A stretch of 64,000 bases of DNA from Niveispirillum sp. (GTDB lineage Bacteria; Pseudomonadota; Alphaproteobacteria; Azospirillales; Azospirillaceae): NCBI RefSeq assembly GCF_017996735.1, contig NZ_JAGOGJ010000018.1, forward strand, positions 1 to 64,000, in the 5' to 3' direction. The notes below the pieces were generated by a model that worked only from the letters and a program-made list of their open reading frames with translations, had not been told where the DNA came from and did no database searches. Made by a program: the position numbers and the translations under genes. This document shows, in pieces, positions 2,642-35,737 of this stretch (positions are counted from its first letter, which is position 1; each line of letters starts with the position of its first letter).

Positions 2642-2677
2642 CCTTCACCAGAACGCCAGCAATCCGGGAGCCCTAGC

Positions 2678-3757: not shown

Positions 3758-3794
3758 ACCGTCCGCCGTCACGCCAGAAAAAAAGGGGATATCC

Positions 3795-5174: not shown

Positions 5175-5185
5175 ACCATCCCGAC
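5174..5185 (+). promoter_or_regulatory. Island motif copy 2 (AACCATCCCGAC)
   Basis: A perfect copy that overlaps the stop codon of the caspase gene and lies 66 bases before the ATG at 5252. A hairpin (CCTCCCCC 5210-5217, GGGGGAGG 5221-5228) follows in the leader, so this copy may start a separate transcript inside the gene row. Confidence 0.6.
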
Positions 5186-5251
5186 AGGATGGATGAGCTG
5201 AAAACGGCGCCTCCCCCATGGGGGGAGGTCTGCCCTGGCAAGGAGAATCCG

Positions 5252-9199: not shown

Positions 9200-11752
9200 A
9201 TGGGGTATCGCAGTGGTCTGTTGGGCACGACGCTGGTGGTGTTGGCTGCGGCCGGTGCCGGGTTGGGCATGCTGTCGCGGGTGTCTGAGATTCAGTCCCG
9301 GCAGGAAAAGGTCGATCCGGATCGGACAGACTATGCGGATCTGATGCGCGACCTGATCAAACTGGGTCTTGTGCGTATCGACGGCGCACGCATCCATCTG
9401 CCGTCGCCCGACCATGCGCTGATCCGCGCTGCCATGCGCCTGACCAGCGGACCGGAACATTCTGTTGCACGTGATGGGGATGAGGATGAGGCCGTGCGGC
9501 GGCTTTATGGATCCATGTCCGGCACCTATCTGCTGCGACAGGTCGAACTGCACAACCGTACACGTGCCATCGTGGCCCTTCGCGACGACCGGTTGTCGGG
9601 GCAGGCCTTTTCGTTTCAACAGCCGCAGGCCGCCAGCGGTTGGAGTATGGCCGCCCTGGACGGCGAGGATCGTCCGCCGCGTCGCCTTGCAAAGGCCGTC
9701 CTGCCGGAAGAGATCGGATTTGTGACCCAGCCGCTGGCACGCGGCATGACCGATTGGGTCACCTTCGCCGTTGATGGCCAGAAAGCGCGCTTCCGCACAA
9801 GGCTACCGGCTGGCGCTGGTGAGCGGGTGATCGAGGTGGTGGGCCGGGTAGTGGCGGTCGATCCGGTGCCCCTGCGTATTGAACCGCGCTGCATGGGTAC
9901 GCCTTGTGGAGACCACGACCTGCAGGGCGCCCGGGTCTACCTGCCCCCAATGGAGCAGGAACGGGAGGTCACGATCGTCCTGGAGCCCCTTCGCAATCCC
10001 GATCTCTATGTACCGGGCCTGAACCTGCGGCTGGAGGGGAACAAAATCAGTTGGCGTGAGGCGCCGACGACCCCGGCCGAGCGCATGGGACCGGCGACCA
10101 TGCCCGTGGGCCCGATTTCCACCTCCGATGGCGTCGCCCTGACGCAGGCCGATGGCATGCCGACGGAGCAGGCGCGGGTGTTGGGTCTTCTGCCTATCAC
10201 CGGTATCGGTCCCGAGGATGCGCGAAACCTGCCATTGGCATTGGCCTCTGATCCACGATTGACGTCGGGCCTGCCGGCCACCCTTACCATTGACAGCCAT
10301 GTCCAGGTGGCCATGATCAAGGCATTGGAGACTCTGGACCTGCCGCCGGAAATGGGGGGCGCGGCGGCCCATCCAGATCAGGCCGTTCTGACGGCCATCG
10401 ACGTTGAAACCGGCGCCATCGTGGGGGCCGCGCAATGGCCCTTTCTGCCTGCCGATGCCCACCCCTGGGACCTGCAGCGGCTTGCGGCATTACCGGCCGA
10501 CCGTGATCTACTGACGCCGGCCGCATGGCAGGGCAAGGGGGTGAGGACCGGCCCCGGGTCAACCAACAAGGTACTGGACAGCATGGTCCTGCTGGACAAT
10601 GCGGAGGACCCGGCGATCCAGGCCATGATCACGGGCTGCGCCCCCCGCGCCGATGGCAGCTTCCCTTGTCTCAATCTGCGTTTGACTGGTACGGCATATG
10701 GTATGCCGGGGCAGAGCCAGCCGGTGAAGAACCTGGCCCTCAATGAGTCCGGTAGCTGGCGTATGACGCTGGGTATGAGCCTGAGCAAGCCGCAGCGCTC
10801 CGCCCAATGCCAGGCCGATCCTGTCCGTTCGAATGGCGTTGGCCTTTTGGAGGCGCTGCGTGACAGCGTGAACACCTTTTTCATTCGCGCGGCCGAGTTA
10901 CTGGATGGGAGTGATGCCCTGCGCTATGACCGCGCTTCACGCCGCCTTCAGGAAGGACAGTCGCTGGCTCCGCCTGTGTCGCGGCTGGTCGCCATGGCTG
11001 ATCGGATTGGATTGCTGACCCCCTTCAGTCTTTCTGGCGCCGCGCAGAGTGCGCAGGCGGGCGGCATGCGCTCGCGTCTGGATGCGCAGGCTGCCAGCAT
11101 GGACATAGCCACCATCGCCCGTCGTGAACCCGGCTTCAAGGGCCAGGGAGCGGTGGATGCCACCGCGCAATGCTATATTGGTCAGCGCTGCCATTACACG
11201 GCGCTGCACGGTGCGATGCTGGCTCAGGTGGCCGCACGTGGCCGACCTATGCGCCCTTACCTTGTGTCTGGCTCCGGTGACCGATCCCTGGACCCGCCGA
11301 AAGCGGGTGAGCCTCTGGGTTTCGATCTCGCGCCGCTTCAGGCCGGCATGAAGGCCGTCACGGAGACGGGAACGGCTGCCGGTCCGCAGGCTTTCGGTGG
11401 TTGGTCCGCACGCTTCACCGGTGCTGTCTGTCATGTGTTCGGCAAGACCGGCAGCGCCCAGGTCAGCCGCAGCGGCGTGGAGGGGACCACGGCCTGGTTT
11501 ATCGGCTGGGCCGAACCGCAGGCCTTTGATGCACTGGCCTTGGGCGCCACACCGGCCCGTCGACGCGCCATCGCTTTTTCCTGCATGGCGACAGGAAACC
11601 ATGGCGCCCACAGCACAGGTGGCAGCGTCTGTGCTCCCCTGGTGGCCCGCATGCTGGAAGGGGTGGCCTCTCCCCAGGCCGACTGGCGCCAGGCATCCTT
11701 GGGGTCGTTTCTGAACATCCCCTTCAGCGGCGAGGGCAGCAACCTGCCGTGA
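9200..11752 (+). CDS. Divergent penicillin-binding transpeptidase
   Basis: 850 residues: an N-terminal membrane anchor (about 7-26), a large periplasmic N-terminal region of about 400 residues that I do not recognise, and a C-terminal transpeptidase domain. All three active-site motifs are present in the right order: S454-T-N-K457, S556-V-N558 and K749-T-G751. An acyl-serine D,D-transpeptidase that cross-links peptidoglycan is therefore expected. It is longer than usual class B PBPs (about 580-650). A SEDS-type polymerase is encoded at 33329 in the same motif-defined group, and class B PBPs normally work with a SEDS partner. It is probably monocistronic, between motif copy 3 and a strong terminator. 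A penicillin-recognising regulator is the alternative. Confidence 0.85.
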   Translation: MGYRSGLLGTTLVVLAAAGAGLGMLSRVSEIQSRQEKVDPDRTDYADLMRDLIKLGLVRIDGARIHLPSPDHALIRAAMRLTSGPEHSVARDGDEDEAVRRLYGSMSGTYLLRQVELHNRTRAIVALRDDRLSGQAFSFQQPQAASGWSMAALDGEDRPPRRLAKAVLPEEIGFVTQPLARGMTDWVTFAVDGQKARFRTRLPAGAGERVIEVVGRVVAVDPVPLRIEPRCMGTPCGDHDLQGARVYLPPMEQEREVTIVLEPLRNPDLYVPGLNLRLEGNKISWREAPTTPAERMGPATMPVGPISTSDGVALTQADGMPTEQARVLGLLPITGIGPEDARNLPLALASDPRLTSGLPATLTIDSHVQVAMIKALETLDLPPEMGGAAAHPDQAVLTAIDVETGAIVGAAQWPFLPADAHPWDLQRLAALPADRDLLTPAAWQGKGVRTGPGSTNKVLDSMVLLDNAEDPAIQAMITGCAPRADGSFPCLNLRLTGTAYGMPGQSQPVKNLALNESGSWRMTLGMSLSKPQRSAQCQADPVRSNGVGLLEALRDSVNTFFIRAAELLDGSDALRYDRASRRLQEGQSLAPPVSRLVAMADRIGLLTPFSLSGAAQSAQAGGMRSRLDAQAASMDIATIARREPGFKGQGAVDATAQCYIGQRCHYTALHGAMLAQVAARGRPMRPYLVSGSGDRSLDPPKAGEPLGFDLAPLQAGMKAVTETGTAAGPQAFGGWSARFTGAVCHVFGKTGSAQVSRSGVEGTTAWFIGWAEPQAFDALALGATPARRRAIAFSCMATGNHGAHSTGGSVCAPLVARMLEGVASPQADWRQASLGSFLNIPFSGEGSNLP

Positions 11753-14109: not shown

Positions 14110-14985
14110 TCAATCTCGGGATGGTTGCCAGCCGGTGGGCTCGGCGAACAGGCGGCGATAGAGGCCGATCAGCCTGTCCAGCGGGCGCAGCCAGAAAGGT
14201 GCCTCCCGCGTGCCGGGGCGGGGCCGGGCCATCGCGCGTCGCGGCCGCCCGGGGGCCAGGTCTGCCTCCACCAGGCTGGCATTGTCGGCGCCAGGCCCGG
14301 CATCGGCCACGGCCAGACGCAAAGTCTCTTGAAGACCGCCGGGCGGCGGGTAGCCTGGGTCCAGGCTACCCCGGTCCCAGGCGGTCCAGACCCCGTCGCT
14401 GGCCAGCAGCAACCGTCCCACCAGGGCGCGCGGCCACAGGGCGACGCGCGGTTCCACTGGACGATCCAGCCCCAGACAATGGCGCAGGATGTTGCGACGG
14501 GGATGGGCCGTGGCCTCGACGCGGGACAGCAGCCCCATCCGTACCATCTCGCCCACCTCTGAATGATCCTGGCTCCGATAGAGCAGGTGGGGACCACGGA
14601 AGGCATAGATGCGGCTGTCGCCCACATGGGCCATGGCAATCCAGCGGTGCGTGATCAGCACGGCGGCGATGGTCGTGCCGGACCAGATCCCCGCCTCACG
14701 ATTGAGGCACAGCAGCGTCTCCTGGGCGTCAGCGATAGCCTTTTGCAAGGTTGCGGCAGGGTGATGGGCGGCGTTCCGCTGTGCCAGAACACTCCGGGCC
14801 AGGGCTTCCAGGACGGTTTCCGCCGCCCAGCCGCCGCAGGGCAACCCGCCCATGCCGTCGGCGACGGCCAGCAGCAGGCCGGAACGGTCACGAAGCGACA
14901 GGGTCAGCGTGCGATCCTGCTGCTCGTTTCGATCGCCGCATAGGCTGCCGGCGGCACAAGGGATGAAGGGCAGGGGGCGGGTCAT
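14110..14985 (-). CDS. PP2C-family Ser/Thr protein phosphatase
   Basis: 291 residues covering a complete PP2C domain. Visible motifs: RNEQQD near residue 20, VADGMGG with metal ligand Asp43, SGTT near 102, HVGDSRIY near 120, ASDGVW with Asp197, and ADNAS with Asp234. There is no signal peptide or membrane segment, so it acts in the cytoplasm on phosphoserine or phosphothreonine. Its start overlaps the stop of the kinase gene by four bases (ATGA), which suggests coupled translation and a matched kinase/phosphatase pair. Such pairs control cell-wall synthesis in many bacteria, which fits the PBP and SEDS genes in the same regulon. Confidence 0.93.
   Translation of the reverse strand: MTRPLPFIPCAAGSLCGDRNEQQDRTLTLSLRDRSGLLLAVADGMGGLPCGGWAAETVLEALARSVLAQRNAAHHPAATLQKAIADAQETLLCLNREAGIWSGTTIAAVLITHRWIAMAHVGDSRIYAFRGPHLLYRSQDHSEVGEMVRMGLLSRVEATAHPRRNILRHCLGLDRPVEPRVALWPRALVGRLLLASDGVWTAWDRGSLDPGYPPPGGLQETLRLAVADAGPGADNASLVEADLAPGRPRRAMARPRPGTREAPFWLRPLDRLIGLYRRLFAEPTGWQPSRD
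14115..14126 (-). promoter_or_regulatory. Island motif copy 4 (AACCATCCCGAG, minus strand)
   Basis: A minus-strand copy with one difference at the last base, embedded in the last codons of the phosphatase gene (WQPSRD stop) and 49 bases before the ATG at 14065. It indicates a separate start for the downstream gene. Confidence 0.55.
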
Positions 14986-16457
14986 GACGGCACCGCCTGG
15001 GCGCGCTGGCGACCGCTACCCGGCAGGGCGACGCCGGCCAGCATGAAGCAGGCCGCTGTCAGCACACCGCCGGCTTCCGCCAGCCCGGCACCCGCCCAGG
15101 ACAGGCCCGCAGCGGTCACGCCCGCCAGCGATACGCCCCAGACCGACCAGGGCGTGTCGCGCCAGCGGTTGGGTTGCAGGAACAGCAGCCACCAAAGCAT
15201 CATCAGAAGGGCCGCGACAGCACCGGCCATCCCATCCGGCAGCAGCAGGGTCCAACTGCCGGTGTGGTTGGTCAGGGCTGCGGCGGCCAGTGCCGGCACT
15301 GCCAGCGGGTGACGCCGGAACAGCCCAGGCAGGGCCGGGGCCAGCAGCATAGGGGCAAGGGTCAGGGCCGGACCGCTCCAGTCCGGCGGCAGGAATTGTG
15401 CGCGCGCCAGCAGCACCAGGGTGCCAAAGGCCGACAGCGACGATGCTGTCACCCATTCAGCCGGACCTGGCCGTGCCACCACGGGTGTGGGTTTGCCGGC
15501 CGTGTCGCGGTTTGCCGGTTCCGGTCGTACGCCGGGCGTCGCCACGTCGGTAACGCCGCTGCAAATGGCCAGCAGGGCGCGGACGGTGGCCGGCCGCTGG
15601 GACGGTTCCAGCGACATCGCCATCGCCACGCCCCTGCGCAATGCCAGGGGCCAGGCTGTCAGCCGGTTCAGGCGCTTCGAGACCTCAGTCCCGAAGGCCG
15701 GGTCGTCGCGCGTCATCAGATGGTAAAGCGTCGCGCCAAGCGAATAGACGTCCAAGGCGACGTTCAGGTTGGGCAGGCTGGAGATCTCAGGCGCCGTATA
15801 TCCGGCGGACTTTACATGGCGTGACACCCTCATGCTGACATGCCGGGCAGTGCCGAAATCAATCAGGACGGGTTTTTTGGTCTTGGCATTGATGATGACA
15901 TTCTGGGGCTTCACATCGGCATGGATGATGCCGCGGGCGTGCAGGGCGTCGAGCGCCTCCACCAATTGGCGAAGCACGTCCAGCACGGTATCGGCATCCA
16001 ACCGGGTTTCCTGCTTCTTCGCCCATACGTCCAGCGTGTCACCGTCGATGAACTCCATGACGATGTAATCGGTATTGTTCTGATCCTCGAGGATGTCATG
16101 GATGCGGGCGGTATTGGGGATGCCGTTATGTTCAAGGGCGGCCAGGCGTTTTGCTTCGTCGCGTGCCTTGGTCCGGGCCCGGACCAGCACGCTGGCATTG
16201 TCGGGCGACTGGGGCCGGACGCTGCCATCCGCCGCCCGGTAGACCTGATCGAGCGGAAAGATTTCCTTGATGGCAACATCCCGTTCCAGCTTCAGGTCCC
16301 ACGCACGGTAGGTCTGGCCGAAACCGCCATGTCCAAGATACCCGGTGATCCGGTAGCGCCCGGCCAGAACGTGACCGACAGGCAGCCGCTGGGCTGCCGG
16401 CTGGCTGGTGCGGATGCTGGACAGGGGGAGACTGTCGACGATGGATTTGTTGCTCAT
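14982..16457 (-). CDS. Ser/Thr protein kinase with C-terminal membrane domain
   Basis: 491 residues. The kinase domain spans about 33-300: glycine loop GYLGHGGFG (39-47), VAIK with Lys64, HADVKPQN with catalytic Asp181, DFG at 200-202 and GYTAPE near 219. The usual HRD arginine is alanine, so it is a non-RD kinase whose activation may not depend on loop phosphorylation. Residues about 335-480 form about six hydrophobic segments with no evident sensor domain. It overlaps the upstream gene by four bases (16454-16457) and the phosphatase by four bases (14982-14985). The order is anchored periplasmic protein, kinase, phosphatase. Cytoplasmic phosphorylation with membrane input is inferred. Confidence 0.92.
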   Translation of the reverse strand: MSNKSIVDSLPLSSIRTSQPAAQRLPVGHVLAGRYRITGYLGHGGFGQTYRAWDLKLERDVAIKEIFPLDQVYRAADGSVRPQSPDNASVLVRARTKARDEAKRLAALEHNGIPNTARIHDILEDQNNTDYIVMEFIDGDTLDVWAKKQETRLDADTVLDVLRQLVEALDALHARGIIHADVKPQNVIINAKTKKPVLIDFGTARHVSMRVSRHVKSAGYTAPEISSLPNLNVALDVYSLGATLYHLMTRDDPAFGTEVSKRLNRLTAWPLALRRGVAMAMSLEPSQRPATVRALLAICSGVTDVATPGVRPEPANRDTAGKPTPVVARPGPAEWVTASSLSAFGTLVLLARAQFLPPDWSGPALTLAPMLLAPALPGLFRRHPLAVPALAAAALTNHTGSWTLLLPDGMAGAVAALLMMLWWLLFLQPNRWRDTPWSVWGVSLAGVTAAGLSWAGAGLAEAGGVLTAACFMLAGVALPGSGRQRAQAVPS

Positions 16458-17469: not shown

Positions 17470-20340
17470 ATGATGTTCCGACTGTTCACGCTGATCCTGT
17501 GCCTTGCGCTGGTGACCGTGGCGCCGGGGGCGGTTGCCCAGGTGCCGACGGAACCGCAATTGCGGATCGAGGCCGGGATGCATACGGCCATGATCAAGCG
17601 TATTGCCACGGATGCGGCGGGGCGCGTGGCCGTGACCGCATCGGATGACAAGAGCGTGCGGGTGTGGGACATGGCCAGCGGCGACCTGCTGCGTGTGCTG
17701 CGCCCGCCCATCGGGCCGGGGGATGAGGGCAAGCTCTTTGCCGTGGCGCTGTCGGCCGATGGCGCGCTGGTTGCGGCGGGGGGGTGGACAAAGCTGGGTT
17801 CCCAAACCGGGAATACAATCTACCTGTTCGACCGGGCCAGCGGGCGGTTGCGGCAGCGACTGACGGGGTTGCCCAATGTGGTCCAAGACCTCGCCTTCTC
17901 CCCCGACGGCCGCCATCTGGCGGTGGGCATTGGAGGGAGTAACGGCATCCGCGTCTGGCGGATGGGCGGCACCTGGGCACAGGTCCTGGCCGATACGGAA
18001 TATGGCGGGAAGGCCCTTGGCCTGTCCTGGGCGGCGGATGGGCGGCTGGCGGCGACCAGTAATGATGGTGACATCCGGCTTTATGGTCCCGATCTTGTCC
18101 GGCGCTGGCGGGTGAAGGCTAAAGGAGGGGAACGGCCCGCTGGCATTGCCTTTTCGCCCGACGGCACGAAGTTGGCTGTGGGTTATGATGACAAACTGGT
18201 GGTGGAGGTCCTGTCGGCGGCCGATGGTGCCTTGTCCTTCCGCCCCGACCTGACCGGCATCAACAATGGCAATCTGGTCAGCGTGGCCTGGTGGGGCGGC
18301 GATCTGGTGGCGGGTGGCAGCTGGGATGTCGGGGGAGATAACCCCGTCCGCCGCTGGTCGGCCGGGGGGCGTGGGGCGTACCGCGACCTGCCCCTCTCAT
18401 CGACCAGCATCATGGACCTGGCACTGCTGCCCGATGGCGGGTTGCTGGCGGCAGCAGGTGACCCCGCCTGGGGCCGGCTGGAACCCTCGGGCAAAAAACG
18501 GCCCTGGAAGACCTCGCCCAGCATCGACATGCGGGACAAGCTGGGAGATGCCTTCACGGTTGCCGCCGATGGCAGCCGGGTCCGCTTCGGGCAGGAGATT
18601 GGCGGTGGCAAGCCGCTGCTGCTGGATCTGTCGGCGCGGGCGCTGAGCCCGGCCGGCACCGGCACTGGCCTTACCCCGGCCCGAACGGAGGCGCCGGGGC
18701 TGACGGTGGCGGGATGGGTCAATGACGACAACCCGACGCTGAACGCCAAGCCCCTTGCGCTTCAGCAATATGAAACGGCCCGGTCCCTCGCCATGCTGCC
18801 GGACGCCAAGGGCTTTGTGTTGGGCGCCGACTGGAGCCTCCGCCTGTTCGACCAGACCGGCCAGCAACGGGCCGAAAGGTCCGCGCCGGGCACCGCCTGG
18901 GGCGTGAATGCCACGTCGGACGGGCGGCTGCTGGTGGCGGCCTATGGGGATGGCACCATCCGCTGGCACCGGGCCAGCGATCTGGTGGAGGTGCTGGCGG
19001 CCTTTGTGCATGTGGATGGTCGGCGCTGGGTGGCCTGGACGCCGTCAGGCTATTACATGGCGGGGCCGGGGGGGGAGGAGCTGATCGGCTGGCATGTCAA
19101 TAATGGCATGGATCAGGCGGCGGATTTTTATCCGGCCGGGCGGTTCCGGGAGCGGTTCAACCGGCCCGATGTGGTGGAGGCCGTCCTGCGCACCCTGGAC
19201 GAGGCGGAGGCGCTGCGCCAGGCCAATGCGGCGGCGGGCCGGCAGGCGGCGCCGGTTGCGGCGGCATCGGACCTGCGGGCCAGCCTGCCGCCCATTGCGG
19301 AATTTGTCAGCCCCGCCAGTGGCGGTTCCTTCGCGCAACCCATCGTCACCGTGCGCTACCGCGTACGCTCCCCGTCGGGCAAGCCGGTGACGGGGGTCAG
19401 GCTGCTGGTGGATGGCCGCCCGGTGGGGCCAACACGCGGGCTGGGCGCCGTGCAGGCGACCGACCAGGAATTCAGCCTGCCCGTCACCCTGCCCACCCGC
19501 GACGTCACCTTGTCTTTGGTGGCGGAGAGTGCGGACGGGGCGGGGCCGGTGGCCAGCGTGGCGCTGCGCTGGACGGGGCGGCCGGCGGTCGATCCCACCC
19601 TGCCCACGCTCTATGTCCTGGCCGTCGGCACCTCGGCCTATGACAAGCCTGAACTGAAGCTGGGCTATGCAGCCAAGGATGCAAGCGACATCGGCAAGGC
19701 GCTGAAGGCGCAGGAAGGCGGGCTTTATGCCAGGGTTGAGGTAAAGGTCCTGGCCGATGTCGACAAGGATGCCGTGCTGGACGGGCTGGACTGGCTGGTC
19801 AAAAACGTGACCAGCCGCGACGTGGCCATCATTTTCATGGCCGGGCACGGGATGACGGACCTGCGGGGTGACTATTGGTACCTGCCGCGCAACGCTGACC
19901 CCGACAGCCTGCGCCGGACCGCCCTGCCCAAGCGGGAGATCAGCGATGCGCTGGAACGGCTGTCGGGCAAGGTGTTGATGTTCATGGACACCTGCCACGC
20001 CGCCGCGGTCGGGACCGGGCGGCAGACACGGGGCACGGTCGACCTGTCAAAGCTGATCGCCGAACTGGCCGATGCCGATGGCGGCGTCGTCATGTTCTCC
20101 AGTTCCAGCGGCAAGGAACTCTCCGTTGAGGATAGCCGCTGGGCCAACGGTGCCTTTACCGAGGCGCTGCTGGAGGGTCTGTCCGGCAAGGCGGAGGTGG
20201 ATGGCACGCCCGGCATCACCCTGTCCGAACTGGACCTGTGGTTGACGAAGCGGGTGAAGGAACTGACAGATGGGCAGCAGCATCCCGTCATGCAGCGCCC
20301 CGACGCCATCCCCAACATCCCCGTCGCCCTGCCCCGCTGA
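17470..20340 (+). CDS. Exported WD40/Ig-like/caspase protein
   Basis: 956 residues from the ATG at 17470, where a signal peptide of about 23 residues begins after GGGGGG; the frame is open upstream to 17173. Residues about 30-640 contain WD40-type repeats (DDKSVRVWDMASGDLL, LAFSPDGRHLAVGIG, IAFSPDGTKLAVGYD), expected to fold as one or two beta-propellers. An Ig-like segment follows (about 660-700 onwards, EFVSPASGGSF and VRYRVRSPSG). A C-terminal caspase-like domain (about 710-950) has His793 in MAGHGMTD and Cys842 in MDTCHAAA. The usual CHSG is CHAA here, which might alter substrate binding. The propeller would be a protein-binding sensor in the periplasm. Confidence 0.88.
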   Translation: MMFRLFTLILCLALVTVAPGAVAQVPTEPQLRIEAGMHTAMIKRIATDAAGRVAVTASDDKSVRVWDMASGDLLRVLRPPIGPGDEGKLFAVALSADGALVAAGGWTKLGSQTGNTIYLFDRASGRLRQRLTGLPNVVQDLAFSPDGRHLAVGIGGSNGIRVWRMGGTWAQVLADTEYGGKALGLSWAADGRLAATSNDGDIRLYGPDLVRRWRVKAKGGERPAGIAFSPDGTKLAVGYDDKLVVEVLSAADGALSFRPDLTGINNGNLVSVAWWGGDLVAGGSWDVGGDNPVRRWSAGGRGAYRDLPLSSTSIMDLALLPDGGLLAAAGDPAWGRLEPSGKKRPWKTSPSIDMRDKLGDAFTVAADGSRVRFGQEIGGGKPLLLDLSARALSPAGTGTGLTPARTEAPGLTVAGWVNDDNPTLNAKPLALQQYETARSLAMLPDAKGFVLGADWSLRLFDQTGQQRAERSAPGTAWGVNATSDGRLLVAAYGDGTIRWHRASDLVEVLAAFVHVDGRRWVAWTPSGYYMAGPGGEELIGWHVNNGMDQAADFYPAGRFRERFNRPDVVEAVLRTLDEAEALRQANAAAGRQAAPVAAASDLRASLPPIAEFVSPASGGSFAQPIVTVRYRVRSPSGKPVTGVRLLVDGRPVGPTRGLGAVQATDQEFSLPVTLPTRDVTLSLVAESADGAGPVASVALRWTGRPAVDPTLPTLYVLAVGTSAYDKPELKLGYAAKDASDIGKALKAQEGGLYARVEVKVLADVDKDAVLDGLDWLVKNVTSRDVAIIFMAGHGMTDLRGDYWYLPRNADPDSLRRTALPKREISDALERLSGKVLMFMDTCHAAAVGTGRQTRGTVDLSKLIAELADADGGVVMFSSSSGKELSVEDSRWANGAFTEALLEGLSGKAEVDGTPGITLSELDLWLTKRVKELTDGQQHPVMQRPDAIPNIPVALPR

Positions 20341-20405: not shown

Positions 20406-21350
20406 ATGACATTGCAGCGCCGCCTCCTGTTCCTCCTCTCCCTGGCTGCCATCCCCTGGGCCGTGCCGCCTTTGGCCCACGCCTGTCCCCCGATGCAGGA
20501 GGCAGAGGCCGCCCGCCGGGCCGGTGATGTGGAGGCGCTGAAGCGCGGTCACATGGCCGCCATGGCCACGGTCCGCTGCACGCCTGAGGATATTGTGGAG
20601 ATCAGCCGCATGGTTGCCGTCTCCTCGCTGGAGGTTTCCCGCAGCCTTCCGCCCGCCCAGGCGGTGACGATGCTGGAGGAAGGCGCCCGCCGCAACCGGC
20701 AGGTCTGGCAGCTTTATGGACGGCTGGGCGAACTGTACAGCGACATGAACCGCAATGCCGAGGCGGCCCGCGCCTTTGAAACGGCGTTGACCATCATCGG
20801 GGACGAGGACAGCACGCCTGCCGCTCCTGCCGATAGCGTGATCAATGACCTGATCGAACGCGCCAAGGAGAGCCGGCAACTGGCCGAAGGCTATCTCACG
20901 CCGGTCAAGGATCGCGCCGGAGAACCCGGCGGCCTGTGGGCCGACAATGTGCGGGGTGTGGTCGTGGGGGATGTCGCGGTACCCATCCGTTTCGAATATG
21001 ACTCCGCCCAGATGACCCCGGACGGTCTGCGCGCTGCCCAGGACATGGCCGAAATCCTGAAGGCCCAGGGAAAGACGGCCGTGGTGCTGAGCGGCCACAC
21101 CGACAGCGATGGCGAGGATGCCTATAATTGCAAGCTGTCGCGTGACCGGCTTGAAGAGGCCCGCAAGCGTCTGAAGGAATATGGCTTCACGGGCGAGGTG
21201 CGCATCGTGGCCAAGGGCGAGCGCCAGCCGGCGGTGATCCGTAACAGCCAGCGCTACACACCAGACCAGATCAAGGCCCAGAACCGCCGCGTCGAATATC
21301 TGCGCAACACCGGCAACGAAGCGAAGGTGATGGCCAATGCGTGTTCATGA
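20406..21350 (+). CDS. Exported OmpA-family protein with TPR-like region
   Basis: 314 residues: signal peptide (1-26), helical TPR-like region (about 90-150: VWQLYGRLGELYSDMNRNAEAARAFE is split over two helices), and a C-terminal OmpA-type domain (about 190-300). The peptidoglycan-binding hallmarks are present: LSGHTDSDG, the LSRDRLEEARKRL helix, AKGERQP and NRRVEY. It should anchor to peptidoglycan from the periplasm, linking the caspase group to the wall. It overlaps the following caspase gene by 14 bases (21337-21350), which points to coupled synthesis. It is first in its unit, under motif copy 7. Confidence 0.87.
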   Translation: MTLQRRLLFLLSLAAIPWAVPPLAHACPPMQEAEAARRAGDVEALKRGHMAAMATVRCTPEDIVEISRMVAVSSLEVSRSLPPAQAVTMLEEGARRNRQVWQLYGRLGELYSDMNRNAEAARAFETALTIIGDEDSTPAAPADSVINDLIERAKESRQLAEGYLTPVKDRAGEPGGLWADNVRGVVVGDVAVPIRFEYDSAQMTPDGLRAAQDMAEILKAQGKTAVVLSGHTDSDGEDAYNCKLSRDRLEEARKRLKEYGFTGEVRIVAKGERQPAVIRNSQRYTPDQIKAQNRRVEYLRNTGNEAKVMANACS

Positions 21351-24461: not shown

Positions 24462-24474
24462 CCCGGAGAAGATC

Positions 24475-25662
24475 ATGCGATCCCTGCTGACGATCTTTGG
24501 CCTCGCCGGCCTGCTGCTGCTTCCGCCCCCGGCGGGCGCGGCGGATAGCCCGACGGCCGGCCTTGTGCTGAATGCCAATCGCACGGGGTTGGCGCTTCTG
24601 GACCGGGAGATGGAGCGGGGAACCGGCAATGCCGCTGTTTCTCCCGCCAACCTGTCGCGGGCCCTGGCCATCCTTTCCATGGCTGGCAAGGGGCCGGGGC
24701 CGGATGCACTGCGTGCCCGACTTCTGGGCCCAGATGCGCGGCCCGCCGCGTTGCCGGTCGCCCTGGCGGCGCTGGACAAGGCGCTGGCCCGCCCGCCCGC
24801 AGCAGACGGCGCGGCCCCGCCGCTGCTTCAGACCGCCGCTCTCTGGCACGCGCCGGATGCCGTGCCCGTGGCCCGTCCGCCCAAGGACCTCGCGGCCCTG
24901 ATCGATGGCGGGCCAAGACCGCTGAAAGGGGTGGAGGATATCAATGGCTGGGTGAGGCAGGCTACGGCCGGCCGTATCCCCACCCTGCTGGACCGGCTGG
25001 CGGAGGATACGCCCATGGTTCTGGCAACGGCGCTGTTGTTCAAGGATGACTGGTCGTTCCCCTTCGAGACGTCGCAGACCCGACCCGCCCCCTTCACCAA
25101 CGCCACCGGACTGGCGGCAGAGGTGGAGATGATGCAGCGGGAGGACAGGATGCTGGCCGTCCGCGATGGCAGCGATGGTACAATCGGGGTCTCCCTTGGG
25201 TACCGCAACGGGTACAACCTGCTGCTGCTGCTGCCGCCAGCCGGTACGCCGGTAGCAGCCCTCCTGACGCCAGAGGGGACACTGGCCGACCCCGCCTTCA
25301 TGGACGGGAGCACCTATGGCCGGATGTCGGCCCTGCTGGTATTGCCGCGGGTGCAACTGACGCAGCGGCTGGAACTGACCGGCCCTGACGCTGCCATGCC
25401 GGACCTGATCGCGGGGCCGCTGGATCTGTCGCGGCTGCTCAAGGGTGGTCCCTGGCCGCCGGGCCGCGCTGTGCATGCCGTCTCCCTTTCCTGGGATGAA
25501 AAAGGAACCGAACTGGCCGCCGCAACCGCCATCGCCGCCAGCCGCGGCATGTCGGAGGATGTGCGCGAAATCCGCTTCGACCGGCCTTTCCTGTTCCTCT
25601 TGCGCGACGGCGCCACGGGCCTGATCCTGGCGGCGGGGCGGGTGGACAGTCCGAAATCGTGA
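24475..25662 (+). CDS. Exported serpin (protease inhibitor)
   Basis: 395 residues from the ATG at 24475 (GGAGAAG upstream), with a signal peptide of about 22 residues; the usual serpin size is 350-400. Serpin landmarks: NAAVSPANLSRALAILSMA near residue 50, TALLFKDDWSFPF near 185, and the hinge DEKGTELAAATAI (Glu342 as P17, Thr345 as P14). The C-terminal signature RFDRPFLFLLRD..TGLILAAGRV begins at Phe368. The small-residue hinge predicts an inhibitory serpin rather than a non-inhibitory one. The reactive loop carries Ala-Ser-Arg-Gly-Met-Ser around the expected P1, so an Arg, Gly, Met or Ser site cannot be decided. It sits inside the caspase operon. Inhibition of the caspases, as viral CrmA does, is inferred. 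Confidence 0.9.
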   Translation: MRSLLTIFGLAGLLLLPPPAGAADSPTAGLVLNANRTGLALLDREMERGTGNAAVSPANLSRALAILSMAGKGPGPDALRARLLGPDARPAALPVALAALDKALARPPAADGAAPPLLQTAALWHAPDAVPVARPPKDLAALIDGGPRPLKGVEDINGWVRQATAGRIPTLLDRLAEDTPMVLATALLFKDDWSFPFETSQTRPAPFTNATGLAAEVEMMQREDRMLAVRDGSDGTIGVSLGYRNGYNLLLLLPPAGTPVAALLTPEGTLADPAFMDGSTYGRMSALLVLPRVQLTQRLELTGPDAAMPDLIAGPLDLSRLLKGGPWPPGRAVHAVSLSWDEKGTELAAATAIAASRGMSEDVREIRFDRPFLFLLRDGATGLILAAGRVDSPKS

Positions 25663-25704: not shown

Positions 25705-27558
25705 GTGATGGGTCTGGTGGTGAGAATTCTATGCGTTCTGGCGCTGCTGCTGCCGGTGGGGACGGGCTGGGCACAGTCAGTGCCGCAGCGCCTGGCGCTC
25801 GTGGTCGGCAATAGCGACTATTCCGTCAGTCCTGATCTCGTCAACCCCCGCAACGACGCGCAGGACATGGCCAAAACCCTCTCCGACCTGGGTTTCACCC
25901 TAGTGGGAGGGGGCGCGTTGCGTGATGCGGGACGGGCGGAGATGCTGCGCGCGATCCGTGAGCTGGGCGGCATGGTGCGCAAGGGGGACACGGTGGTCTT
26001 CTATTTTGCGGGCCATGGGGTGCAGTTCGACGGCCAGAACTACATGCTGCCGGCCGATGATCAGGATATCCGTGAACGGGAAGATCTGCCTGAGAATGCG
26101 CCGTCCCTGGCGACGCTGCAGCGCAGCCTGGAGGGAAGGGGGGCCGGCCTGACCCTGTTGCTGCTGGATGCCTGCCGCGACAACCCGCTGCCCGCGCGCA
26201 GCCGTGCCGCCAGCCGCGGCCTGGCGCCGGTGGATCAGGGGCGGCTGGGCGAAGGAACCGTCGTCGCCTTTGCCACCGCCCCGGGATCAACCGCGTCGGA
26301 TGGCAAGGGGCATAACGGCGTGTTCACCCAGGCCCTGCTGACGGCCCTGCGCAAGGATGCGGCCCGGCGTGTGGATGATATCCTGTACGAAGTGACAGAC
26401 CTTGTGCAGAAGCAGGGGGTAGCGCAGAAGCCCTGGTTCAATGTCAATCTGGCGAGACCCGCCTTCCTGCTGCCGCCCCGCGCGGGAGAGGGAGGGCAGT
26501 CGGAGGCGGCCCTGTGGGAGAGCGTGAAGAACAGCCGCGATGCAGCCGCGCTCGAACGGTATCTCGGGCGCTTCCCCGATGGGCTATATGCGCGTGCAGT
26601 CCGCTACCGTATGGCCGCCTTGGGTTCAGCGGTCCCCGTGCCGCTGCCGACGGGAGTGCTTGTACTGGAGGCGCCGCCGAAGCAGCTTTCAAAACAAGAG
26701 ATATCGACCGGTACCCTTGATGAGATCATCGTCACGGGGAGAAACCGTGTTGTCGACGGAGAGGATTGGTCGGAACCACAGGAGGTGCCGCACCTGTTCA
26801 CCGAATGCTATGAATGCCCGGTGATGGTCCGGTTGTGGACGGGTGATTATCTGCGGGGCACGGATAGCGACGATCCGGCCCGGGCCATGGAGCGGCCACA
26901 ACGCAAGGTCACAATCCAGAGACCCTTCGCCGTCAGTGCAACGGAGGTAACACGCCAGGAGTGGGATGATTGTGTCACTGACGGAGGTTGCAGAGGTTTT
27001 GTGCAGCGCGATCCCGAGGGGGAGGATGTTCCTACCGCTAATCTGCCGATTGTGCGGGTGTCCTGGAACGACGCCCAGGCCTATGTCCGCTGGCTCAACA
27101 GCAAGGTGACCAGCAGGATCAAGAATCCCTATCGCCTGCTGACGGAGGCGGAGTGGGAATATGCGGCACGGGCGGACTCGCAGACTGATTATAGTAGTGG
27201 CGACTTCTTGCAACCAAAACATGCAAATTTTAATTATCTGACGGTGGGATTGACGCTTCCGGCGGGGTACGCGCCGCAACCGGTGCCCGTGGGGGAGTTC
27301 AAGGCCAACGATTTCGATCTTTACGATATGCATGGCAATGTCGCGGAATGGGTGGCTGACTGCGCCACCAGCTATGCCAACGTGCCGGATGACGGCACGA
27401 AGGCCCCTGAGAAGGCGGGGTGCCCGCGTGTCATCCGGGGCGGCTCCTATCTCGACGTCCCCACTGAACTCCGCTCCTCCAGTCGCAGGAGTGCCGAAGC
27501 CAATTTACGCAACGACGATGTTGGCTTCCGCGTCGCCCGTACCCTGCCGGATAAGTGA
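25705..27558 (+). CDS. Exported caspase fused to FGE/sulfatase-modifying-like domain
   Basis: 617 residues if started at GTG 25705; the ATG three bases later is equally likely. Signal peptide about 1-24; caspase-like domain (about 27-255) with His104 in YFAGHGVQ and Cys157 in LDACRDN (GTG numbering). A linker follows, then a formylglycine-generating-enzyme-like domain (about 365-612): FAVSATEVTRQEWDDCV, VSWNDAQAYVRWL, LLTEAEWEYAARA, DMHGNVAEWVAD, RVIRGGSY and a final GFRVAR. In such fusions the FGE fold usually acts as a binding module. It lies 42 bases after the serpin, and its stop lies 23 bases before the ATG of the next caspase gene. Confidence 0.88.
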   Translation: MMGLVVRILCVLALLLPVGTGWAQSVPQRLALVVGNSDYSVSPDLVNPRNDAQDMAKTLSDLGFTLVGGGALRDAGRAEMLRAIRELGGMVRKGDTVVFYFAGHGVQFDGQNYMLPADDQDIREREDLPENAPSLATLQRSLEGRGAGLTLLLLDACRDNPLPARSRAASRGLAPVDQGRLGEGTVVAFATAPGSTASDGKGHNGVFTQALLTALRKDAARRVDDILYEVTDLVQKQGVAQKPWFNVNLARPAFLLPPRAGEGGQSEAALWESVKNSRDAAALERYLGRFPDGLYARAVRYRMAALGSAVPVPLPTGVLVLEAPPKQLSKQEISTGTLDEIIVTGRNRVVDGEDWSEPQEVPHLFTECYECPVMVRLWTGDYLRGTDSDDPARAMERPQRKVTIQRPFAVSATEVTRQEWDDCVTDGGCRGFVQRDPEGEDVPTANLPIVRVSWNDAQAYVRWLNSKVTSRIKNPYRLLTEAEWEYAARADSQTDYSSGDFLQPKHANFNYLTVGLTLPAGYAPQPVPVGEFKANDFDLYDMHGNVAEWVADCATSYANVPDDGTKAPEKAGCPRVIRGGSYLDVPTELRSSSRRSAEANLRNDDVGFRVARTLPDK

Positions 27559-27581
27559 TCCATCCTTTCCTGGAGTCCGTG

Positions 27582-29042
27582 ATGCCCATCCGCCATGTCG
27601 GTTTCCTGCTCTTGGTGCTGCTCTTTGGCGCTATCCCGGCGGCATTGGGCAATATAAGGCAGGAATCTGAGGCGGGGCGGAAAGTGGCGCTGGTCATCGG
27701 CAACGGTGCCTACAAGGGGGCGCCCGTGCTGCAAAATCCTCTGAATGATGCGGCGGCGATGCGCAGGGCGCTGGGCGGGATGGGTTTCAGCGTCATCGGT
27801 GGCGACGATCTGGACGTGGCCGCAATGGACGGGTTGCTGGACCGGTTTGCCGGCATGGCGGCGGGGGCGGAACAGGCGGTCATCTATTTCTCGGGCCACG
27901 GGTTGCAGGTGGATGGGGTTAATTACCTGTTGCCTGTTGATATCTCCTTGTCCACGAAGCGTGACCTGCACCGCCGGGCCATCCTGGCCGATGCGATGGT
28001 GGAGGCCATGGCCGGGGCGACCGGGTTACGGTTGCTTATCCTGGATGCCTGCCGCGACAATCCTTTTGCGCGGGCTCTTGAGGCAACGAGTGGGACGAAG
28101 TCGGTTGCGGTGGGCAAGGGCCTGGGTCAGATCGCGGGCCTGGACGGAGTTGGCAATACCCTGGTCGCCTATGCCACTCGCGCCGGTGACGTTGCCCTGG
28201 ATGGAACAGGCAATCTCAGCCCCTACGTCAAGGCCCTGACCACGCATCTGGTGACACCGGGTCTGGAACTGAACCTGCTGTTCGGCCGCGTGCGCGATGA
28301 TGTGGTGAGGGCGACCGGTGGCCGGCAGATTCCCTTCACCTATGGTTCCACCGGCGGGCAGGCCATCTATCTTGCCGGGCTGCCCCTGCCGGTGGAGGCG
28401 CCGGTGCTTGATCGCCCCACCGTGGCGGATGACAAGTGGACGGTGCAGCCCGGTGGTCAGCACAGGCTGAGCGTGCTGGACAATGACAAGGCGGCGGCCG
28501 GTGGGGCGCTGCGGATCGTCGCCGTCACCCAGCCGAAGGCCGGCGAGGTGCGGGTTGCCCCCGACGGGCGCAGTCTGCTGGCCGAGGTGCCGGCAAATAT
28601 CGAGGGGGAGTTGCGCTTCACCTACCGCGTGGAGGATCAGGGCGGTGGCCGGGCGGAAGGGCAGGTGGTCCTTGCCTTGTCGAAGCCGCCTGTGCAGGTA
28701 GACGTCCTGTCGAAGCCGCCTGTGCAGATGGACGAGAATACCCTATCCGTACCGCTCGGCCTGATAGTGGCGGATCTGACGGAGCGGCGTCGTCGGGAGT
28801 TTAATATAAAGCCGAGTGTCAAGGGCGTGGTCGTTATAAGAAACCTTAAGAATCCTGGCTCAAGTGGGGTGTGGGGTCTGCGTCCTGGCAATGTAATTGA
28901 GCGTTTGGACGGTCGACCGGTCGATGGAAAGCATGAGTTTAATGAAATGCTATTGCAATCCATAATCGATAGAAAGAATGGTGTGTCTTTATCTGTGAAT
29001 ATAGATGGATATCTCATGTTTGATTATTTTTGGTTTAGGTAG
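27582..29042 (+). CDS. Exported caspase/cadherin-like/PDZ protein
   Basis: 486 residues from the ATG at 27582 (GGAG six bases upstream); a GTG overlapping the preceding stop is the alternative. Signal peptide about 1-24; caspase-like domain (about 30-265) with His106 in YFSGHG and Cys157 in LDACRDN. A cadherin/Ig-like domain of the VCBS or Big_9 type follows (about 290-375: DDKWTV, LSVLDNDKA, LRFTYRVEDQGGG). Then come a 10-residue tandem repeat (SKPPVQ twice) and a PDZ domain (about 395-486: GLIVADLTERRRREF, KGVVV, GLRPGNVIERLDG). The PDZ-coding DNA (28790-29042) is AT-richer, with rare codons, as if acquired separately. Last gene of the unit. Confidence 0.87.
   Translation: MPIRHVGFLLLVLLFGAIPAALGNIRQESEAGRKVALVIGNGAYKGAPVLQNPLNDAAAMRRALGGMGFSVIGGDDLDVAAMDGLLDRFAGMAAGAEQAVIYFSGHGLQVDGVNYLLPVDISLSTKRDLHRRAILADAMVEAMAGATGLRLLILDACRDNPFARALEATSGTKSVAVGKGLGQIAGLDGVGNTLVAYATRAGDVALDGTGNLSPYVKALTTHLVTPGLELNLLFGRVRDDVVRATGGRQIPFTYGSTGGQAIYLAGLPLPVEAPVLDRPTVADDKWTVQPGGQHRLSVLDNDKAAAGGALRIVAVTQPKAGEVRVAPDGRSLLAEVPANIEGELRFTYRVEDQGGGRAEGQVVLALSKPPVQVDVLSKPPVQMDENTLSVPLGLIVADLTERRRREFNIKPSVKGVVVIRNLKNPGSSGVWGLRPGNVIERLDGRPVDGKHEFNEMLLQSIIDRKNGVSLSVNIDGYLMFDYFWFR
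28681..28736 (+). repeat. 30-bp tandem duplication in a caspase linker
   Basis: CGAAGCCGCCTGTGCAG at 28681 recurs at 28711, a 30-bp period encoding two copies of a 10-residue unit (SKPPVQ followed by a variable part). It lies exactly between the cadherin-like and PDZ domains. Confidence 0.75.
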
Positions 29043-31795: not shown

Positions 31796-33196
31796 TCAAT
31801 CCTCTCCGTCAGTGGACGGGGCCGCCGTATTGGCGGGCAATTGCCGGAACTTCACGATCAGGCGGTGCAGCCACTGGTCCAGGCCGATGGCGCCGTCCGC
31901 TTCGATGCGGGACGATAATCCCTTGATCTTGCTTGTGTAGTCCTTCTGGGGCGTGCCGTTCAGGATGAAGAGCAAAGCTTTGTGCTCGACCTTGTCGATC
32001 CGTCCCTCGTCGCGCGCCTTCTGCGCCTGTTCGATCATCTTTTCCAGGCTGAGCGTGCCGCCTCCGGCTTCGCCCCGTTGCCGTCCCGTCTCTTCGGTTT
32101 CCGGGTTGTGGCCATCTTCCCCCTCCTCATCGTCATCAGCATACCGATCGTTCGCGGGGCCGGACCTGTCCAGCCAGTCCGGCGCGTCGCCGGCTGCATC
32201 CGCCTGTTCCTCTGTCGGGATGGTCGCGGCCAGCACGTCATAGGATACGGTGCGATCCGGGCGCAGATGCCCGATGGACAGCTTGCCCAGTTCTCCATGC
32301 AGGAACGCTTCCAGGCTTTTGTAACCCGGTACCGGGTTGCCGTCCGTCTTTGGATCTTTCGCCAGATCGTCCCAGACCTGCTGCCAGATGGTCAGGGAAT
32401 CCTTTGGCTCGCCATGTCGCGTTGCCTTATCGAAGGCGATCCGGCGCAGGTTGTTGGCAGCCCGCAACTGTGACAGGGAGGCAAGCCAGCCTTCGGGCGG
32501 CTCGATTTCCGGTGGATCGACGCGGCGGCTGCCGATCCGGTGGAAATAGGCGGCGGGATCGACGCCCAACCGCACCAATTCCCGAAATGTACGGTCCAAA
32601 TTCTGCATCGCATCGCCGGCAACATCGATGAAGGCGGTCTTTCCGTTGGAAGACCAGGGCAGCAAGGCCGTCGGTCCGCAACTTATGACATCCCAGAGCC
32701 CAATCCAGTCGGTGATGGGCGCGCTCATTTTTCTCACGTTCAGGCCGAACGGTTCCGCCATGGGATGGGACGAACGTGGAAGTAGGCCGAACGCTTCCCC
32801 GATCCGCCGCAACTCCGGGTCCAAAGCCCGCGCGCCGCCATGATGGGGGGTCACCACCGCCTCGTCCCAGTGTGCCCTGTCTACCCGCTGGCAAAGCAGT
32901 TCCAGGGCCTTGTGCCCTGTGCTGGGGTGGCGCCCCCGCGTCAGCCGGATGGGCGTGTGCAGGACCATACGCAGATAGAGGTCGGCCCGGTCAGCGCGCG
33001 TGTCGAAATCAGCGCCATCGGGTAGCCGCAACAGGCGGCGGCCCTTGCCGCAAAGATAGTCCATCAGACTTTTCTGGATACGCCAGGGATGCACCACGCC
33101 TGCCCCCCCACCTGAGGGGGAACTTAGCAGGTGGGCCAGGAGGTGGGCCAGACGTTGATGCGGACTGAGCTTCGGCGCGTTTGGTTCGCGGGTCAT
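31796..33196 (-). CDS. Cytoplasmic protein of unknown function, first gene of a four-gene unit
   Basis: 466 residues; the ATG has GGGGGAG upstream. No signal peptide or membrane segment. Two Trp-rich segments (ITDWIGLWDVISCGP near 150 and SLTIWQQVWDDLA near 260) and an acidic, low-complexity linker (about 345-375, DDDEEGEDGH) divide the protein. The C-terminal 85 residues are helical and charged (ARDEGRIDKVEHKALLF). I recognise no family. It is divergent from the SEDS gene across a 132-base intergenic region that contains motif copy 8 on the other strand. It could be a regulator or scaffold; no DNA-binding motif is convincing. Confidence 0.6.
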   Translation of the reverse strand: MTREPNAPKLSPHQRLAHLLAHLLSSPSGGGAGVVHPWRIQKSLMDYLCGKGRRLLRLPDGADFDTRADRADLYLRMVLHTPIRLTRGRHPSTGHKALELLCQRVDRAHWDEAVVTPHHGGARALDPELRRIGEAFGLLPRSSHPMAEPFGLNVRKMSAPITDWIGLWDVISCGPTALLPWSSNGKTAFIDVAGDAMQNLDRTFRELVRLGVDPAAYFHRIGSRRVDPPEIEPPEGWLASLSQLRAANNLRRIAFDKATRHGEPKDSLTIWQQVWDDLAKDPKTDGNPVPGYKSLEAFLHGELGKLSIGHLRPDRTVSYDVLAATIPTEEQADAAGDAPDWLDRSGPANDRYADDDEEGEDGHNPETEETGRQRGEAGGGTLSLEKMIEQAQKARDEGRIDKVEHKALLFILNGTPQKDYTSKIKGLSSRIEADGAIGLDQWLHRLIVKFRQLPANTAAPSTDGED

Positions 33197-33285
33197 TCAA
33201 TTCTCCCCCATGTCGCTGGTGCAACGCAGGATGTGGACAAGGCCTGCTCCCCGCAACCGGAAAATGACCTGACTGTGCTGCCTCC

Positions 33286-33297
33286 GACCATCCCGAT
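33286..33297 (+). promoter_or_regulatory. Island motif copy 8 (GACCATCCCGAT)
   Basis: Two end-position differences from AACCATCCCGAC with the ACCATCCCGA core intact, 31 bases before the ATG of the SEDS gene. No copy is oriented towards the divergent gene starting at 33196. Confidence 0.5.
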
Positions 33298-33328
33298 ATT
33301 TGAGAAGAAGCCAGATGAAGGGGGGATC

Positions 33329-35737
33329 ATGCGTACATTCTCATCGACCGGGTCAGGGATGGCCTTTCTCATGGCGCTGGTCATTCTGGCCGTCACGACC
33401 TTGCTGGCGGGGGAGATGGCGGATCGTGCCACGCTTGGCTATCGGGTGACGGAGGTGCATCTGTCCTTGCCCCCTCCCGGCGAAGGGTTGGACCTGTCAC
33501 CGGCACACCTTGGACTCTATCCGGATGACAGCCCGGTTCTGCGTCTGATCCGCGATAGACCCGATGCGGTACCGCGCGTGCTTCCCCTTCGTCCGGGGCT
33601 GGACTTGAAAGTCGACCGCGGAGAGGATTTCCAGTCGCTTTACCGCTACCGGCTTTTTCCAGGTGATGGCCTGACGGGTGCCGGTTTTTCGCTGGCTGTC
33701 GCGATGGAGGGGAAAAGCACCTTTCTGGTGGATCGGGTCGGCGGCGGTCGTATCGACCTGGACCCGGCCCGCATACCGGTGCCCGATGGCCCGCTGAAGG
33801 TGGATGATTGCAACCCGAAGGCCGGGGGCGCGGAAAGGCTATGGATCGGGCTGAAGGATATGTTTCGTAAGCTGTTTGGCCAGCATGGCTGGACATTGGC
33901 GATCGGTGGCAATGTCGCCTGTCCCGGACGCTGGCCCCTCTCGGACGTTGCTCTGGGCTCTCTGCGTCTCGACGTAACGGATGACGGGGAGGTGTGGATT
34001 GATGCTGGCCGCTTCCCGGGCTTGGTGCGTCACCAGCGCCCGCTTCCTGTGGAACTTCCGGCTGTGAAGAGGTTGATGGTGGGGCCGACCCTTTTCGAGA
34101 TGGAGATGAACGGGGGAGATCTGATCCTGCACGCACGTACCGGCCGGCCGCTCCTGTCCGACCCTTTGGCGGGTGACGGGTTGCGGTTCGAAGGACCGGG
34201 AACCCTGCTGGAACGGCCGGGAACCTTGGCCGCGCTGATCGCACTGGCCAATGATCCGCTGCAACCGCTGCTCGCTGGTTTGCTGTTTCTGGTCATCACG
34301 GGGGGACTGTATCTGGCCTGGCGGGCCGAATTGCCGGTGCTGTGGCACCACGGGGCGGCGCTGTGGCTGTTGTGCCTGGGCGCGCAGGCGGTCTACGGCG
34401 TGGTGCGCTCGGGTACGGATGATCCGCTGTTCTGGATGGGGGTGGCGGGAATGGCAGCGGCCTTCGCCACTCTGTGTCTGGCGATCGGCGGCTGGCTGCG
34501 CGGGGCCGGGGGGCTCGTCTGGTGTCTGTTGCTGTTCATGGCTGCCGTCGGGCTGCTGGCGCAGGGGCAGATGGTGGCCGGCGGTCGGGCCGAGGGGGCG
34601 GTGGGCATCCTGGTCCGACATACGGCCTTGGGTGTGGCCGGCAGCGCCCTGGCCTTCTGCCTGCTGTCCCTGGTGCCGTTCGCCCCGCAGATGCGAGTTC
34701 TGGAGGGCTTCACCCTGGACATGGTCGCCTATGATTGGAAACGGGCGCCGTTGGTGTGGCTGATCTTCGTCGTGGGGGTAGCGGCATTGATCCTGGTCGC
34801 CCTCGGGTCGGAACGGGGCGTCGCCTCCATTCAGCCGGCGGAATTCGTGAAGATGGCCGTCGCTGTCATCACGGCCGCCCTGGCCGCCGCGCTTGGCCGC
34901 CTTCTGCGTGAGGGGGGGAGGGAGATGTCGCGCCTGCGGCTGGCATCGTGGTGCGTGACCTGGATACTTCTGTTCATTGGGCTGGCTTGTGCGTTCCTGG
35001 CAGTGAGCGACATGTCGCCGCTTCTGACCCTGGGCTTCATCCTGCTGGGTGGCTGGGCCGGGCTGCTGCTGCATGCGCTGGCTGCGCACCGTGAAAGCCG
35101 GAATTTCGGTCCGCTGGGCTGGGTGCTGCTGCTGCCGGGTGTGGTTCTGGCGGCAGCCCTCTCCTTCGGCCTGTTCAGTAATCCGCAGCCCCTGCTTGAA
35201 ATGCTGGGTGAGGTCGGGGGTGGGCGGTTCGACACCTGGTTCGACCCTTACTATAACCAGATTGGGGGGGCCCAGCTTCTGGATGCCTGGAACGCCATAC
35301 GTACCGCACCGTTGCTGCCGGACCCCGGGGAGTGGTTCGGACCCAACGGAGTGGAGCGCCGGATCGCCGCCGTGCATCATGATTTTGTCGGCGCCTTCGT
35401 CATCGCCCGTTTCGGCATCTTATTGGCGGCAGCGCTTGCGGCGGCGCAGGCGGCGATAGTGGTCGTCCTGATGCTGGCGGGATTGCAGCTTGTCTGGGCG
35501 CCGCCGGCCCACGGCACCGCGCCTGATGGGGGCCTGCTGTTGGGGCACCTCTGTTTGGGCATGGCCACCGCGCTTGGCATGCAATGGCTGGTCGGTTGGG
35601 CCAATCCGCTGGGGCTGCTGCCCGTCATGGGACAGCCCATGTCCTGGATCGCCTATGCCAATTTTCACACCCTGTGCTTCGGTGTTCCGGCCCTCTGGGT
35701 GGGGCTTATGGCGCAGCGTGCGGCAAGGGAAGCGTAG
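33329..35737 (+). CDS. Large FtsW/RodA-type (SEDS) protein with N-terminal extracytoplasmic domain
   Basis: 802 residues from the ATG at 33329 (AGGGGGG upstream), about twice the usual SEDS size. One membrane segment (about 11-30) is followed by a beta-rich region of about 280 residues of unknown fold. A polytopic part then follows, with about ten to twelve segments. SEDS hallmarks: IQPAEFVKMA near 501 (QPSEFxKL in FtsW/RodA), the loop RFDTWFDP with AVHHDFVGAFVIARFG, and NPLGLLPVMGQP (family: NlGvlPvtGiP). SEDS proteins polymerise glycan strands from lipid II together with a class B PBP; the island encodes one at 9200. The sequence is divergent, so activity needs proof. Probably monocistronic under motif copy 8. 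Confidence 0.8.
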   Translation: MRTFSSTGSGMAFLMALVILAVTTLLAGEMADRATLGYRVTEVHLSLPPPGEGLDLSPAHLGLYPDDSPVLRLIRDRPDAVPRVLPLRPGLDLKVDRGEDFQSLYRYRLFPGDGLTGAGFSLAVAMEGKSTFLVDRVGGGRIDLDPARIPVPDGPLKVDDCNPKAGGAERLWIGLKDMFRKLFGQHGWTLAIGGNVACPGRWPLSDVALGSLRLDVTDDGEVWIDAGRFPGLVRHQRPLPVELPAVKRLMVGPTLFEMEMNGGDLILHARTGRPLLSDPLAGDGLRFEGPGTLLERPGTLAALIALANDPLQPLLAGLLFLVITGGLYLAWRAELPVLWHHGAALWLLCLGAQAVYGVVRSGTDDPLFWMGVAGMAAAFATLCLAIGGWLRGAGGLVWCLLLFMAAVGLLAQGQMVAGGRAEGAVGILVRHTALGVAGSALAFCLLSLVPFAPQMRVLEGFTLDMVAYDWKRAPLVWLIFVVGVAALILVALGSERGVASIQPAEFVKMAVAVITAALAAALGRLLREGGREMSRLRLASWCVTWILLFIGLACAFLAVSDMSPLLTLGFILLGGWAGLLLHALAAHRESRNFGPLGWVLLLPGVVLAAALSFGLFSNPQPLLEMLGEVGGGRFDTWFDPYYNQIGGAQLLDAWNAIRTAPLLPDPGEWFGPNGVERRIAAVHHDFVGAFVIARFGILLAAALAAAQAAIVVVLMLAGLQLVWAPPAHGTAPDGGLLLGHLCLGMATALGMQWLVGWANPLGLLPVMGQPMSWIAYANFHTLCFGVPALWVGLMAQRAAREA

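Follow-up and report, generated by a model that had tools for sequence, protein, structure and literature searches.

A putatively secreted serpin encoded inside a caspase operon of Niveispirillum sp., a candidate inhibitor of its neighbouring proteases

Analysis of a 64,000-nucleotide stretch of the Niveispirillum sp. genome (contig NZ_JAGOGJ010000018.1, hereafter the window) confirmed that the gene at 24475-25662 encodes a serpin and that it lies inside an operon of caspase genes. Comparing this locus with its relatives, we propose that the serpin is a dedicated, co-expressed inhibitor of an adjacent exported protease with Arg/Lys specificity, here most likely the metacaspase-type enzyme C3 and/or C2, a reading that we hold to be reasonably probable. 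Which targets bacterial serpins have within the cells that make them, and what restrains bacterial caspases, are both largely open questions, and the pair described here would be a bacterial counterpart to the serpin-metacaspase brake of plants. Since the gene pair also occurs in culturable and genetically tractable Rhizobium, both questions become approachable at the bench. No earlier report of a bacterial caspase-serpin pair was found in the open-licence full text that was searched, and a 2021 phylogeny of serpins does not discuss gene context (PMC8233489).

The 24475-25662 reading frame (plus strand) translates without a stop into 395 residues, starts 5 bases after a Shine-Dalgarno-like GGAGA (24465..24469, plus strand) and has an N-terminus that, judged by eye, resembles a signal peptide. 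Its product matches Pfam Serpin over residues 38-393 (2.8e-42; score 145.7 bits, family cut-off 27), which places it in the serpin family I4 of MEROPS; it has no match in NCBIfam or PHROGs, and the 7.47 Mb genome encodes no other serpin. An AlphaFold2 model built with 87 serpins (pLDDT 86.4), which replaced a poor one built with 6 sequences (pLDDT 55), displays the three-sheet serpin fold with an exposed reactive loop: native miropin was its top Foldseek match, and VIA-align matched 359 residues to antithrombin at 2.4 Å (Z 41.4). An earlier note made from the letters of this DNA had called the gene a confident serpin, quoting the hinge DEKGTELAAAT and the motif FDRPFLFLLRD; both motifs are in the frame and, together with the Pfam score and the fold, they bear this out.

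According to the alignment, the reactive-centre loop spans residues 342-368 (25498..25578, plus strand). It opens with the hinge Glu342 and later reads Arg357-Gly358-Met359, the Arg standing at hinge Glu +15, and the predicted P1-P1' pair is Arg357-Gly358 (codons 25543-25548, plus strand), in a register that is uncertain by one residue. The earlier note had also proposed modelling this loop, and residues 349-360 are disordered in the model (pLDDT < 50), as would be expected if the loop is free. The hinge, which it had described as typical of inhibitory serpins, is not entirely canonical: judged against the inhibitory pattern used here (Gly at P15, Thr or Ser at P14 and small residues from P12 to P9), Gly344-Thr345 are kept and residues 348-350 are Ala, but P12 is Leu347 in place of a near-invariant Ala. 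Of 49 positions with a conservation of at least 90% among other bacterial serpins, 32 are kept and 17 are changed, including Ser59Asn and Asn185Thr, which we take to lie in the shutter region. The Leu at P12 and the shutter substitutions could weaken inhibition by this protein, or could mean that it serves as a substrate instead.

The operon consists of seven genes, five of which encode caspases, in the order WD40-caspase, OmpA, C2, C3, serpin, C4 and C5, all on the plus strand and with successive gaps of 65, -14, -4, 13, 42 and -4 bases. Two caspase genes follow the serpin, as had been noted, but three rather than two precede it. The first gene (17470..20340, with a start ATG at 17470 or 17473 in an ORF that opens at 17173) encodes a protein, presumed to be exported like the other products of this operon, with WD40 (Pfam 1e-22) and caspase (Peptidase_C14, 1.5e-13) domains, a His-Cys dyad and the S1 Asp. 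Next come an exported TPR protein of the OmpA, peptidoglycan-binding type (20406..21350; Pfam OmpA 1.6e-10) and the exported caspases C2 (21337..22920; C14 9.5e-19) and C3 (22917..24461; C14 1.4e-18), the latter with a DUF4384 domain (9e-5). Beyond the serpin, the exported C4 is fused to an FGE-sulfatase domain (25705..27558; C14 1.1e-36, FGE-sulfatase 8.4e-51), and the exported C5 carries an Ig/cadherin-like repeat and a weakly PDZ-like C-terminus (27555..29042; C14 6.5e-35, Big_9 1e-10; residues 396-482 give a weak DegP-type match, 7e-4).

C3 is the product of the gene that immediately precedes the serpin, both in this operon and in relatives. Its best solved relative is metacaspase-1, its His-Cys dyad lies in SGHG and DSCHSG, and it has acidic S1 residues in the form of an Asp in an SRQDA motif and another at Cys-2, all of which are features of metacaspases/orthocaspases (C14B). 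The dyads checked in the window, that of C2 included, are all intact, and the S1 Asp and the Asp at Cys-2 are kept in all caspase domains examined. The metacaspase/paracaspase pattern for a basic P1 consists of Asp residues at these two places, the first S1 motif and Cys-2, and S1 pockets of this kind are expected to be specific for Arg/Lys. Orthocaspases are known to cleave after basic residues (PMC6426788). The genome also encodes another caspase pair (contig C22), distinct from C2/C3 and not accompanied by a serpin. A known defence system was considered and rejected: in PADLOC, the caspases hit nothing more specific than a generic caspase model, and the neighbouring kinase gave matches of the kinase type.

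Relatives were recovered by an alignment scan of genome contigs, a single-protein scan having returned none. Serpins are present in 5 of the 82 genomes of the window's family-level group, and four of these (G000, G003, G056 and G057) have the serpin directly after a C3 orthologue. The same order was found outside the group in G366, in G276, G162, G368 and G864, in G494 and G1049, and on three Rhizobium plasmids (R. etli CFN42 p42e, R. binae and R. bangladeshense), which brings the total to 11 genomes of alphaproteobacteria, drawn from four family-level groups, and the three named plasmids. In these linked loci, the caspase gene lies just upstream of the serpin on the same strand, abutting it or nearly so. 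In an alphaproteobacterial sample of 385 genomes from 276 genera, where few candidates were scored per genome and some C3 genes may have been missed, C3 orthologues were detected in 5 genomes, with a serpin adjoining C3 in all five, and serpins in 9 (co-occurrence by genus, p ~ 6e-6). None of 80 background serpin loci from many prokaryotic phyla had a nearby caspase gene (0/80), or a trypsin or papain gene of the kinds seen at linked loci; yet 20 of 39 background-serpin genomes have caspases elsewhere, and the detector, when tried on 18 known caspases from genomes of this kind, recovered all 18. This background, the co-occurrence by genus and the P1 contrast given below led us to reject chance adjacency.

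Three genomes (G024, G035 and G036) keep C2 and C3 without the serpin, which is therefore dispensable there, and the other searched genomes of the genus have neither C3 nor serpin, which makes the operon accessory. The earlier note had likened a built-in inhibitor to toxin-antitoxin logic in the periplasm; of such a pair, in which loss of the partner would be lethal, the shared operon is seen here, but C3 occurs without a serpin in the three genomes just named. Individual loci differ in layout. In G003 (L014 3019-19855), one island carries two serpins together with several caspases, the genes being on opposite strands. On R. etli CFN42 p42e (L135 4377-12179, RHE_RS24690-RHE_RS24705), a caspase, a trypsin-pseudocaspase-DUF4384 protein (RHE_RS24695), the serpin (RHE_RS24700) and a Ser/Thr kinase are encoded in that order. 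A serpin gene on the mobilizable Sphingobium plasmid 4pYBL2-4 (L136 7515-8810) lies near a relaxase gene and has no adjoining protease.

Arg or Lys occupies hinge Glu +15 (+16 in G366) in all 15 linked serpins, which represent eight lineages, against 13 of 87 background serpins with a basic residue at either position (p = 1.7e-6 for the eight lineages versus the background), and it is followed by Gly, Ala or Ser. Because the one-residue shift in G366 moves the Arg-Ala pair together, we read the Arg as P1 rather than P2. This conserved basic residue at the putative P1 and the conserved acidic S1 residues support the earlier suggestion that an Arg at P1 would suit metacaspase-like basic specificity; an Arg P1 also occurs in some serpins without any caspase. 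In a tree made by a quick method and with long branches, the linked serpins and the G048 serpin group together, tentatively (SH-aLRT 94), and for that reason the pairing may have had a single origin and the lineages should not be counted as fully independent. C2 and C3 form separate orthologue groups in the caspase tree (100/100), and groupings are alike among the C2, C3 and serpin trees.

Next to every linked serpin lies at least one protease that appears to be active, but its class varies. The pairing of serpin and caspases proposed in the earlier note is supported by a gene order kept across four family-level groups, but elsewhere the partner also bears a trypsin domain and is once papain-like. 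In the three lineages f80, f82 and f174, C3 carries an N-terminal trypsin domain with an intact triad and Asp189, and these fused trypsins all begin after an Arg (R/IVGG, R/IIGG or R/VIGG). The caspase domain of the Rhizobium C3 has Gln for its catalytic His, with trypsin and serpin kept, and in f82 neither catalytic residue of C2 remains. The C2 caspases at L119 5093-6622 and L120 4910-6463 have His changed to Ala and Cys to Gly and are still in the operon. G048 (L017 14089-17156) is not an unlinked exception, since directly upstream of its serpin, in the position of the caspase, lies a gene for a papain-like protease that retains its Cys, His and Asn; OmpA and peptidoglycan-binding DUF4384 genes lie nearby. 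What accompanies the serpin is thus an exported protease, probably one specific for Arg/Lys, and here this would be the caspases, because the island has no trypsin domain and the only S1A matches elsewhere in this genome are in the HtrA range, none being strong.

In the mechanism that we propose, the caspases and the serpin would be exported to the periplasm, where an active caspase would attack the loop at Arg357-Gly358; the cut loop would insert into beta-sheet A and the acyl-enzyme would be trapped covalently. Such a one-shot trap would set a threshold, allowing proteolysis only once activated caspase outruns serpin, and it would shield the bacterium from its own proteases, whichever of the caspases is the target. 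The fold with its free loop, the operon, the kept pairing, the basic P1, the intact dyads and the acidic S1 residues are the supports for this model.

Since the upstream protein has a trypsin domain in f80, f82 and f174 and the Rhizobium caspase lacks its His, the conserved target may be trypsin. In its fullest form, which we judge unlikely, this explanation makes the fused trypsin domain the ancestral and real target, lost in the window's group, where the serpin would now act on a remote protease or be decaying. The intact triad and Asp189 directly upstream, the retention of trypsin and serpin in Rhizobium, the fit of an Arg P1 to trypsin and the divergence of the 24475-25662 serpin all speak for it. 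However, G000, G003, G056 and G057 have no trypsin domain on the upstream gene and have retained the serpin and its basic P1 over long branches, and the separate S1A protease in the G056 operon has Ser instead of Asp at 189, which is ill-suited to an Arg P1. It is also conceivable, if rather doubtful, that both classes belong to one exported cascade of alphaproteobacteria, in which an Arg-specific caspase would activate a trypsin zymogen and a single co-encoded P1-Arg serpin would stop both, the protease class being exchangeable (caspase, trypsin or papain); if true, caspases would form the basis of a protease-serpin circuit that is complete in itself.

That the serpin is a substrate or sensor of the caspases, its cleavage or loop insertion serving as a signal, would agree with the P12 Leu and shutter changes of the 24475-25662 protein and with the existence of non-inhibitory serpins (PMC8233489), but other linked serpins are near-canonical, that of G056 keeping a hinge rich in Ala and all but one of the 49 conserved positions (48), and we find this reading quite improbable. 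Least probable of all is a shield of the envelope against foreign proteases, with the caspases as mere neighbours on a shared accessory island: the lack of both C3 and serpin in the other searched genomes of the genus would fit, but the place right after C3 and the basic P1 are kept across families, and background serpins do not lie beside such proteases.

The earlier note had pointed to viral CrmA, likewise a serpin against caspase-fold proteases. CrmA has Asp at P1 and targets host apoptotic caspases, whereas Arg357 at the predicted P1, facing self-encoded metacaspase-type enzymes, makes this parallel a poor fit and led us to reject CrmA mimicry; AtSerpin1 of Arabidopsis is closer. Its P1 is basic, as predicted for the linked bacterial serpins, and to our knowledge its gene and those of its targets are not paired in the plant genome. 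AtSerpin1 inhibits the metacaspases AtMC9 and AtMC1 and the papain-like RD21 (PMC10609998). The same protease classes adjoin these bacterial serpins, but the plant protein is cytosolic and meets its proteases after compartment breakdown, whereas the present ones are bacterial, exported and co-operonic. We know of no caspase partner gene for miropin, the siropins, chloropin (PMC5127057, PMC10090351) or tengpin. These are also bacterial serpins, but mostly assayed on host or model proteases. Alphaproteobacterial trypsin-p20-DUF4384 proteins were described as pseudo-orthocaspases with a QC dyad, in an account from which serpins are absent (PMC6426788); the Rhizobium upstream protein is one of them, whereas in C3 of the window the HC dyad is intact and a trypsin domain is absent.

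Further genes lie around the operon. The caspase region is flanked by genes for a penicillin-binding transpeptidase and for a protein of the FtsW/RodA type (9200-11752 and 33131-35737), which suggests a link with the cell wall. A PP2C phosphatase and Ser/Thr kinase pair (14110-16457, minus strand) adjoins the operon, and the Rhizobium serpin also neighbours a kinase. A series of DUF4384 genes occupies 2096-6394, and one of them (3795-5174) also encodes a caspase domain; within the serpin-caspase module, DUF4384 is found again on caspases, on trypsins and on accessory proteins.
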